From: Hyphomicrobiales bacterium
GTDB lineage: Bacteria > Pseudomonadota > Alphaproteobacteria > Rhizobiales > Aestuariivirgaceae
Direction of reading: 5' to 3'
NCBI GenBank assembly: GCA_026982665.1
Contig: JALSGQ010000025.1
Coordinates: forward strand, 1-45,666
DNA length: 45,666 bases
Shown here in pieces: positions 17,405 to 20,383 of this stretch. Each line of letters opens with the position of its first letter. The first letter of the stretch is position 1. The position numbers were made by a program, and so were the translations under genes. The notes below the pieces were generated by a model, which was not told the DNA's origin, did no database searches, and saw only the letters and a list, made by a program, of their open reading frames with translations.

Positions 17405-17434
17405 TTGACGCACGAGCCGTTTTGGGCCTATGGC
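17405..17434 (+). promoter_or_regulatory. Candidate promoter for serC-serA
   Basis: TTGACG (17405-17410), 18-bp spacer, TATGGC (17429-17434). The predicted transcription start is about 17441, exactly where the two-hairpin serC leader begins, which supports both assignments. Confidence 0.5.
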
Positions 17435-17440
17435 GAAGGC

Positions 17441-17490
17441 GGGCCACCCCTCCCCAACGAGGGGCGAACATCTGCAAGGATGTGTTCATC
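17441..17490 (+). ncRNA. serC leader RNA (cis-regulatory motif)
   Basis: Two adjacent hairpins end at the serC start codon. Hairpin 1: CCCCTC (17447-17452) with GAGGGG (17459-17464), loop CCCAAC. Hairpin 2: ACATC (17468-17472) with GATGT (17479-17483), loop TGCAAG. The AAGGA ribosome site (17476-17480) lies in the loop and 3' arm of hairpin 2, so folding would hide it. This matches the alphaproteobacterial serC motif (Rfam serC family), whose last stem covers the serC ribosome site. The ligand or factor sensed is not known. Confidence 0.75.
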
Positions 17491-18660
17491 ATGACCATGA
17501 TCGAGAAACCGGCTGCGCGGCCGGAAAACCCGCGCTTCTCCCCCGGCCCCACCACCAAGTTCAAGGGCTGGAGCTTCTCCCTCCTGGAAAATGCGCTGCT
17601 CGGACGTTCTCACCGCTCGAAGGAGGCGGTGGAGCGCATGCAGTATCTGCTGAACCTCACCCGCGAGGTGCTGCAGGTGCCCGACAGCCATCTCATCGGC
17701 ATCGTGCCGGGGTCCGACACCGGCGCGGTGGAAATGGCCATGTGGAACCTCTTGGGCTCCCGCCCGGTGGAGGTGCTGGCGTGGGAGAGCTTCGGCAAGA
17801 TGTGGGTTGTCGACGTGCTGGAGCAGCTCAAGGTGGAGCAGGCCGAGGCCAAGGTGGCCGACTTCGGCGAACTGCCCGATCTTTCCTCGGTGGACTTCAG
17901 CCATGACGTGGTGTTCACCTGGAACGGCACCACCTCCGGCGCGCGGGTGCCCAACGGCGACTGGATCCCGGACGATCGCGAGGGCGTTACCATCTGCGAC
18001 GCCACCTCCGCCGCCTTCGCGCAAGAATTGCCGTTCGACAAGCTCGACGTGGTTACCTACTCCTGGCAGAAGGTGATGGGCGGCGAGGCACAGCATGGCA
18101 TCATCATCCTCTCGCCGCGCGCCGTGGAGAAGCTGGAGAGCTTCACCCCGCCCTGGCCGATCCCGAAGCTGTTCCGCCTCACCAAGGGCGGCAAGCTGAT
18201 CAAGGGCATCTTCGAGGGCCAGACCATCAACACCGTCTCGCTCATGGCCATCGAAGACCACATCGCCGCGCTGGAATGGGCGAAGAAGCTGGGCGGGCTG
18301 GATGCCCTCATCGCCAAGGCCAACGACAACGCGCAGACGGTGTGGGACTGGGAAGCGAAGACCGACTGGGTGGAAAACCTCGTTTCCGACCCGGCCATTC
18401 GCTCCAACACCTCCGTCTGCATGCGCCTGTCCGATGCCGGCAAGGAAGGGCTGACGGAAGAGCAGGCCAGCGCCCTGCCCAAGCGCATGCTTCAGCTGCT
18501 GGCGGAAGAAGGCGTGGGCTATGACCTCTCCGCCTACCGCACCGCGCCGCCGGGCTTTCGCATCTGGTGCGGTGGCACGGTGGAGAAGAGCGACATCGAG
18601 GCCCTGCTGCCGTGGCTGGACTGGGCCTACGCCACGGCGCGGGCGGAAATGACGGCCTGA
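17491..18660 (+). CDS. serC: Phosphoserine aminotransferase
   Basis: PLP enzyme that converts 3-phosphohydroxypyruvate to phosphoserine (serine pathway) and also acts in pyridoxal phosphate synthesis. The 389 residues begin near RFSPGPTTKFKGWS and include GIVPGSDTGAVEMAMW and the PLP lysine Lys194 in TYSWQKVMGGEAQHG. This is the longer alphaproteobacterial type rather than the 360-residue E. coli form. ATG 17491 follows an AAGGA held in the leader hairpin. serA follows after 133 bp and catalyses the preceding reaction, so the two form a serine operon. Confidence 0.94.
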   Translation: MTMIEKPAARPENPRFSPGPTTKFKGWSFSLLENALLGRSHRSKEAVERMQYLLNLTREVLQVPDSHLIGIVPGSDTGAVEMAMWNLLGSRPVEVLAWESFGKMWVVDVLEQLKVEQAEAKVADFGELPDLSSVDFSHDVVFTWNGTTSGARVPNGDWIPDDREGVTICDATSAAFAQELPFDKLDVVTYSWQKVMGGEAQHGIIILSPRAVEKLESFTPPWPIPKLFRLTKGGKLIKGIFEGQTINTVSLMAIEDHIAALEWAKKLGGLDALIAKANDNAQTVWDWEAKTDWVENLVSDPAIRSNTSVCMRLSDAGKEGLTEEQASALPKRMLQLLAEEGVGYDLSAYRTAPPGFRIWCGGTVEKSDIEALLPWLDWAYATARAEMTA

Positions 18661-18793: not shown

Positions 18794-20383
18794 ATGGCAC
18801 CGAAGGTTCTCATTTCCGACAAGCTTTCTCCCACCGCCGTGCAGATTCTCAAGACGCGGGGCCTTGAAGTGGACTACGAGCCGGATCTGGGCAAGGACAA
18901 GGAGGCCTTCCTCGCCCGCATTGGCGAGTATGACGGCCTTGCCGTGCGCTCCGCCACCAAGGTTACGGCCAAGGCCATCGAGGCGGCGAAGAACCTGAAG
19001 GTCATCGGCCGCGCCGGCATTGGCGTGGACAACATCGACGTGCCGGCGGCCACGGCGCGCGGCATCATCGTCATGAACACGCCGATGGGCAACGCGGTAA
19101 CCACCGCCGAGCACGCCATCGCCATGATGCTGGCGCTGGCCCGCAACATCCCGCAGGCCGATGTCTCCACCAAGGCCGGCAAGTGGGAGAAGTCGAAGTT
19201 CATGGGCGTGGAGGTCTATCGCAAGACGCTGGGGCTGATCGGCTGCGGCAACATCGGCTCCATCGTCGCCAACCGCGCGCAAGGGCTGCACATGCGCGTC
19301 ATTGCCTTCGACCCGTATCTCACGGAAGAACGCGCCCGCGAGATCGGCGTGGAGAAGGTGGACTTCGACGAGCTGCTGGCGCGGGCCGACTTCCTCTCCC
19401 TGCACACGCCACTCACCGACAAGACGAAGAACATCATCGACGCCGCGGCACTGGCGAAGATGAAGAAAGGCGCGCGCGTCATCAACTGCGCCCGTGGCGG
19501 GCTGGTGGTGGAGAAGGACCTGTATGAGGCCATCAGGTCCGGCCACATCGCCGGGGCGGCGCTGGACGTGTTCGAGGAGGAACCGGCGCGGGAGAACCCG
19601 TTGTTCGAGCTCGACAACGTCATCTGCACGCCGCATCTTGGTGCCTCCACCACCGAGGCACAGGAGAACGTGGCCATTCAGATCGCCGAGCAGATTGCCG
19701 ACTACCTGCTCACCGGCGCGGTGTCCAACGCGCTCAACATGCCCTCCATCACGGCCGAAGAGGCACCGGTGCTCAAGCCCTACATCGAGCTGGCGGAGAA
19801 GCTGGGGCTGTTCATCGGCCAGATCATCGGTTCGGCCATCGAGGACGTTACCATCGAATATGCCGGCTCGGTGGGCGAGCTGAACATCTCCGCCCTGTCC
19901 TCCGCCCTGCTGGCCGGGCTGCTGCGCCCGACGCTTGGCGATGACATCAACATGGTCTCCGCGCCGGTGGTGGCAAAGGAGCGCGGCATGACCATCAACG
20001 AGGTGCGCCAGACCCAGCGCGGCGTGTATGAGGGCTACATCCGGCTGGAGGTAACCACCGAGAACTCGAAGCGTTCGGTGGCCGGCACGGTGTTCGCCGA
20101 CGGCAAGCCGCGCATCATCCAGGCCAAGAACATCAACATGGAGGCGGAGTTCGGCCCGCACATGCTCTACGTCATCAACGAGGATCGCCCCGGCTTCCTC
20201 GGCGCGCTGGGCACGCTGCTGGGCGAGGCGGGCGTGAACATCGCCAACTTCAACCTCGGCCGCACCGCGCCGGGCGGCGAGGCCGTGGCACTCATCGAGG
20301 TGGACGAGCCGCTGCCTGAAGACGTGCTTGAGAAGGTGCGCGCCCTGCCGCAGGTGAAGTGGGCCTCGGCCATGGAGTTCTGA
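18794..20383 (+). CDS. serA: D-3-phosphoglycerate dehydrogenase
   Basis: NAD-dependent oxidation of 3-phosphoglycerate to 3-phosphohydroxypyruvate, the first step of serine synthesis. The 529 residues are the long form: a split substrate domain (1-100 and about 285-315), a Rossmann domain with [10 protein letters not shown] (about 147-156), the catalytic Arg in NCARGG, Glu in DVFEEEP and His in CTPHLGAST, an allosteric substrate-binding domain (about 318-450), and a C-terminal ACT domain ([28 protein letters not shown]) expected to bind serine. An AGGAGG precedes the ATG. A terminator follows the gene. Confidence 0.96.

Follow-up and report, generated by a model that had tools for sequence, protein, structure and literature searches.

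The serC leader RNA of Alphaproteobacteria: a proposed pseudoknot on the first transcribed nucleotides

Introduction

The serC motif (Rfam RF00517) is a short leader RNA described by Corbino et al. 2005 (PMC1273637), whose passages on the motif give (i) two stems, (ii) promoter elements directly before the motif, (iii) a ribosome site within the last hairpin, and (iv) a structure backed by in-line probing. As far as that account extends, the promoter, the start site, and the hidden ribosome site were already published for the family in 2005. The probed RNA came from A. tumefaciens and began at -46, and the passages on ligand testing report no effect of any of seven compounds, namely serine, threonine, PLP, and four related ones. 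Binding of a protein is proposed there as an alternative.

A 2020 review (PMC7266159) treats serC, where it deals with it, as a long-standing orphan candidate. The serC passages of the orphan-riboswitch literature describe no knot, the relevant portions of PMC3766115, PMC2873474, PMC2573895, PMC9481103, and PMC5770649 add nothing on serC structure, and the passages on serC start sites mention no mapped start. A literature search did not find a serC pseudoknot, which is no proof that none is in print. Greenlee et al. are said to have presented an updated serC motif in 2018, and the pseudoknot discussed below may already be shown in that update.

Locus and Gene Context

The window, the whole stretch of 45,666 bases analyzed here, contains a single Rfam family above threshold. 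cmscan places RF00517 on the forward strand at 17437-17488 with 65.5 bits (E 2.4e-12; gathering threshold 35), aligned to model positions 1-52 of 52. An earlier note on this DNA, made from the letters alone, had named a serC leader RNA of about 50 nt and suggested an Infernal search with the Rfam model; the end-to-end match bears out the identification, and 50 nt separate 17441 from the ATG at 17491. Both stems of the family are visible in the sequence and align to the model, and hairpin 1 is also backed by covariation in relatives.

The leader stands in front of serC (17491-18660, + strand), which encodes a phosphoserine transaminase of 389 aa (TIGR01365, 566.5 bits; cut-off 448.2), and serA (18797-20383, + strand), which encodes a phosphoglycerate dehydrogenase of 528 aa (TIGR01327, 697.4 bits; cut-off 454), as the family leads one to expect. 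The three proteins tested give the order serC, serA, purA. The leader region, as far as compared, is the same in a genome of the window's genus (G471) and in Thermopetrobacter sp. TC1 (L177, L199), and the window thus probably comes from Thermopetrobacter. The locus is an ordinary new member of a known orphan RNA family.

Distribution of the Leader

Of 385 alphaproteobacterial genomes, 115 carry RF00517 at E <= 0.001, at one place in each and above threshold in 111, and 264 encode a TIGR01365-type SerC that scores above the cut-off. Among 14 control genomes, Caulobacter vibrioides is the only carrier of RF00517. The first 25 nt of the leader (17441-17465, + strand) form a 5′ module for which an H-type pseudoknot is proposed below, and a model of this module alone, R1, scores 43.1 bits in the window's genome, its only match reported there at E <= 1. 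R1 matches 134 of the 385 genomes at E <= 1 and, within the order containing the window's genus, 165 of 188 at E <= 3, where a few weak matches are due to chance. Twenty genomes have an R1 but not an RF00517 match, and 18 of these R1 places lie upstream of serC; R1 thereby recovers leaders absent from the Rfam results, including some devoid of hairpin 2.

The gene downstream of the module is serC in 249 of the 254 loci tested (248 loci, as L276 repeats L219), the exceptions being L115, L133, L135, L323, and L324. The extrapolated distance from module to serC start is 9-126 nt in 247 of the 248 and 287 nt in L228. Removal of eight duplicates leaves the 240 distinct leaders used throughout; L115 (of 115 Rfam rows), L133 and L135 (of 20), L276, and L323 and L324 (of 18) were dropped before the counts, L176-L195, L325-L351, and L352-L367 lie outside the 240, L031 was kept out of the 25-mer alignments for a 1-nt stem bulge, and L031 and L112-L115 were kept out of one leader list. 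The comparison supports association of the module with serC alone, in what was searched.

A second target gene was considered on the basis of nine R1 matches away from serC (L133, L135, L352, L353, and L362-L366), which are the off-serC places examined, with the longest downstream frame read for seven. All have E >= 0.096 and no serC downstream by tblastn, and they are taken as chance. Occurrence outside the class was likewise rejected: 398 genomes of the phylum yield two matches (E 0.2 and 0.217), and serC adjoins neither of them.

This narrow distribution bears on whether the module is an operator for a metabolite-sensing RNA-binding protein, much as PyrR serves pyrimidine genes, with no direct ligand. 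Such an operator, the alternative that followed the negative ligand tests of 2005 (PMC1273637, in its discussion of serC), would agree with a module that is small and restricted to one class within the searched genomes, the two weak places above being the only ones beyond it. It is countered by the lack of a candidate protein and by the single Rfam match in each of the 115 genomes, which gives no sign of a regulon. We regard a protein operator as possible and rather unlikely.

Several serC genes have no recognizable module. Six non-alphaproteobacterial loci (L205, L207, L217, L230, L263, and L271), among 80 loci of a SerC-based set, have no R1 match upstream; their records are named Verrucomicrobia, Cyanobacteria, and Acidobacteriota, their SerC proteins are 58-61% identical to that of the window, and their serC has perhaps moved without its control RNA. 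A pattern search found no module at a Deinococcus serC (L341) or at an Agrobacterium plasmid serC (L338). The latter (Agrobacterium sp. T29 plasmid, NZ_CP040642.1) is a second kind of serC that adjoins an aminotransferase gene on a conjugative plasmid.

Upstream regions of module-less serC genes were read for 40 (L136-L175) of about 55 among the matches listed. These encode the same SerC type, in many cases retain a TTGAC...TA promoter a short way upstream, and, in related genomes, have other short upstream stretches in common. One, L139, holds a diverged module in leader position with GGG/CCC kept. Degenerate knots were otherwise dismissed here, as a strict scan gave none and a permissive scan gave eight versus 7.45 in shuffles, which is noise apart from L139.

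Doubled leaders occur in three genomes. The two serC genes of G843 differ from each other, and each is preceded by a leader of its own (L358, L359). In G948, two contigs have a common leader and differ further upstream (L356, L357), and in G777 the two matches are identical in sequence and lie at the ends of contigs (L354, L355); the latter two cases are more likely assembly effects.

Promoter and Predicted Transcription Start

The earlier note placed a -10 element at 17429-17434 and a start at about 17441, and both placements hold up as predictions. The -35 element TTGACG (17405-17410, + strand) is separated by 18 nt from TATGGC (17429-17434, + strand), the former matching the consensus at five of six positions and the latter, a weak match, at only three. 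Taken by itself, the sequence offers a weak promoter, and the output of a consensus promoter scan does not include the serC promoter of the window.

The placement draws on relatives. Of 114 homologues, 109 have a T at the position equivalent to 17406, 35 nt before the first G of the leader, and 93 have a -10-like hexamer whose end lies 7-8 nt ahead of GGG. The same spacing is seen in 196 of the 240 distinct leaders, a figure that leans towards the start-site reading because the scan could place the hexamer end only 4-11 nt upstream. Conservation jumps at one point in the 114 leaders, with a TTGAC-like -35, a pyrimidine (114/114), and then GGG (114/114); a pyrimidine occupies -1 in 239 of the 240. 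A pyrimidine-purine step at this distance from a -10 element is the usual bacterial start. Since the spacing and the step agree with that pattern, the invariant block of the 240 leaders is predicted to begin at +1, the first G of GGG at 17441 (+ strand), while the stem of hairpin 1 begins at 17447. The arrangement has the promoter directly upstream of the motif, as in RF00517, with a weak -10 whose placement is backed by relatives.

Hairpin 1 and the Proposed Pseudoknot

Hairpin 1 comprises a stem at 17447-17452/17459-17464 and a CCCAAC loop at 17453-17458 (+ strand). Among 119 distinct modules, five of its six pairs change on both sides. The earlier note had described a two-hairpin leader; both hairpins are present, and what it missed is a likely additional helix between the first three nucleotides, GGG at 17441-17443, and the loop CCC at 17453-17455, which would pair with 17443-17441. 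For hairpin 1 and this helix together, 224 pair cells of the 119 modules are changed two-sidedly versus 62.0 in shuffles, and control structures slid along the same modules reach at most 40. The covariation score is 0.582 versus 0.180 +/- 0.010 when shuffled, with 0 of 500 shuffles as high.

The putative helix is GGG/CCC in 238 of 240 distinct leaders and AGG/CCU in the other two, with one-sided changes in none (0/240). The compensatory loop-to-flank pairing that marks an H-type pseudoknot is found for pair 1-15 only (17441-17455), where two lineages have exchanged GC for AU. The putative pairs 2-14 and 3-13 are invariant, so covariation is blind to both.

The two AGG/CCU leaders, L219 and L322, precede serC genes whose products are 66% identical to each other. 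In a tree of 56 SerC proteins (59 loci were tried, three of which had no long enough SerC), L322 falls beside Devosia (100/99) and L219 belongs to a different group of 15 rows (99/93); they are united in 0 of 200 bootstrap trees, a bootstrap that had not fully settled. L219 (JAJRRE010000140.1) is from a metagenome-assembled genome and entered through SerC similarity, not through its leader. L322, which lies directly upstream of serC, entered through the Rfam model; its 33.2 bits fall slightly short of the threshold of 35 set for the family, and R1 reported only other, weak places in that genome. Two separate compensatory changes provide good comparative support for pair 1-15 as a predicted contact.

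Most search models themselves favor GGG and CCC, and knot variants are therefore under-sampled. The least biased set is the SerC-based one, in which 69 of the 80 loci have an R1 match and 11, read by eye, do not, one of the 11 having only 117 nt upstream. This set contains 68 GGG/CCC leaders and one AGG/CCU leader.

In the proposed geometry, modeled on H-type knots in general, two 3-nt linkers would flank an unbroken central strand. Apart from rare variants, hairpin 1 carries a CCCAAC or CCCACC loop, and the linker letters are near-invariant (A16 in 239/240, C18 in 238/240). Positions 6 and 25 are A/C in 223 of 239 leaders, G/U in seven, G/C in seven, and never A/U, a pattern suggestive of a wobble-like pair closing hairpin 1 at its base, as if selected. 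The G/U and G/C forms occur in L112-L114, L116-L118, L126-L131, and L134.

GGG and the loop CCC remain constant even between AT-rich flanks (e.g. L016 and L035), which suggests strong selection on the module. Three leaders from genomes of ~1.3-1.4 Mb (L016, L035, and L300) keep a G+C-rich stem and GGG/CCC amid strongly AT-rich flanks.

Single-sequence folding of the leader gives z = -0.51, with 51 of 200 shuffles folding at least as well, and the lowest-energy fold, from a program that cannot draw knots, places GGG elsewhere. The structure is supported by covariation, not by single-sequence folding.

These observations also frame the view that there is no pseudoknot, in which GGG is fixed by transcription initiation, AGG/CCU has arisen twice by coincidence, and the loop CCC is fixed by another partner, such as a small RNA or a protein. 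Such a view would account for the two pairs of three that never vary and for the position of GGG in the single-strand fold. It is at odds with the absence of one-sided changes in 240 leaders alongside two two-sided ones that both fall exactly on pair 1-15, in SerC groups distinct from each other, and with linker lengths that would suit an H-type knot, and we consider it very improbable.

Hairpin 2 and the Ribosome Site

Hairpin 2 (stem 17468-17473/17478-17483, + strand) is closed by a GCAA tetraloop at 17474-17477, and the Shine-Dalgarno sequence AAGGA (17476-17480, + strand) lies 10 nt before the ATG at 17491. The GNRA-type loop and the 3′ side of the stem together hold AAGGA, as the family description has it, and agree with the earlier note that the second hairpin would hide the ribosome site. 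The hairpin ends at 17483, which puts the start codon within the 11 nt allowed by the family.

By a rule of our own setting, a UGNRAG(G)-type hairpin covers the ribosome site in 219 of 240 leaders. The other 21, sorted by eye, include some with a different or slightly altered hairpin (e.g. L058, L116-L118, L124, L126, L245, and L273) and about nine with none evident over the site (L113, L114, L129-L131, L134, L139, L228, and possibly L112); the rest are ambiguous. The module persists in leaders with a lost or altered hairpin 2. Its presence in leaders devoid of hairpin 2 suggests that module and ribosome-site hairpin are separable, and the variability of the hairpin makes the module the constant part.

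A sensor module with a replaceable output hairpin fits this pattern, as does, equally, a 5′-end stabilizer with a separate translation brake. In the stabilizer variant, the knot would be a constant cap-like structure whose paired first three nucleotides block pyrophosphohydrolase and 5′ exonuclease, yielding a stable serC-serA mRNA, while hairpin 2 merely sets translation and nothing is sensed. The paired block does begin at the predicted first nucleotide and the module does outlast hairpin 2, as a cap would have it; stability would not obviously demand either the near-invariant linker or the association with one gene, and we judge a pure cap improbable.

Proposed Mechanism

Our best explanation, held at about an even chance on comparative grounds, is that the leader is a cis-acting translational control RNA for serC with the 5′-end knot as its sensor. 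Transcription would start at G17441 such that the mRNA opens with GGG, whose pairing with the CCC of the hairpin 1 loop would form an H-type pseudoknot. Strand 17447-17455 would then be paired without a break, first in the 6 bp of hairpin 1 and then in the 3 bp of GGG/CCC, with 3-nt linkers at 17444-17446 and 17456-17458. This 25-nt knot would act as the sensor, and the second hairpin, two nt after it, would cover the AAGGA of serC. An effector, for which a metabolite linked to the synthesis of serine is the likeliest candidate, would stabilize or loosen the knot and so set ribosome access. The output would be the amount of SerC and probably also of SerA from the same operon, and our guess at the direction is OFF when the product of the serine pathway is plentiful.

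The alignments support the identity of the RNA, the predicted start site, the pairing of hairpin 1, and probable knot pair 1-15; the other two knot pairs, switching, effector, and direction are what the model would add. At roughly even odds, translational control via the knot by a serine-pathway metabolite is favored over a protein operator and over an element that acts on stability alone. More generally, the serC element may consist of a 25-nt aptamer or protein site, a pseudoknot on the first transcribed nucleotides, and an exchangeable ribosome-site hairpin, a composite to which we give somewhat less than an even chance.

The proposal has consequences for ligand testing. The earlier note suggested in-line probing with serine, phosphoserine, and PLP, of which serine and PLP were already negative on A. 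tumefaciens RNA, and phosphoserine does not appear in the list of compounds given in the serC passages (PMC1273637). The first G of the leader lies at -46 (once, in S. meliloti) to -50 in 13 leaders, namely three named Rhizobiaceae and ten from f175, a family presumed to be the same. The RNA probed in 2005 may or may not have lacked GGG. If the knot is real, an RNA devoid of its native GGG would be unable to fold, and the earlier negative tests therefore merit repetition with GGG-bearing RNA. The extra helix, with its two natural compensatory changes, points to the likely sensor part and defines the RNA to make, with its native 5′ GGG. What the analysis adds is a testable structural claim on the family, perhaps already contained in the 2018 update, and a 25-nt module model that reaches leaders the two-hairpin Rfam search did not give.

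Comparison with Known Systems

The closest system is RF00517 itself (Corbino et al. 2005), with which the window leader shares the whole 52-position model, both stems, the promoter directly upstream, the ribosome site in a last hairpin with a GNRA loop, and the position upstream of serC and serA. It differs in the proposed contact between nucleotides 1-3 of the transcript and the hairpin 1 loop, whereas the 2005 text, in its serC passages, and the structure annotated in the Rfam match give two stems only. In some relatives, unlike the family description, hairpin 2 is missing.

The SAM-II riboswitch (metA motif, RF00521), as described in the corresponding passages of PMC1273637, is also alphaproteobacterial and short, consists of one stem and a pseudoknot, and has a possible start site a few nt before its first stem. 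In contrast to the serC leader, its minimal tested RNA is 68 nt and binds SAM, the likeness being one of description.

The preQ1 class I riboswitch (ykvJ motif) is likewise a very small stem-loop element, and later work established that its conserved nucleotides make up a pseudoknot, according to the relevant section of PMC7266159. Its tail after the stem-loop takes part in the fold, whereas serC would use the 5′ end of the transcript; it controls other genes and measures 34 nt, compared with 25 for the serC module.
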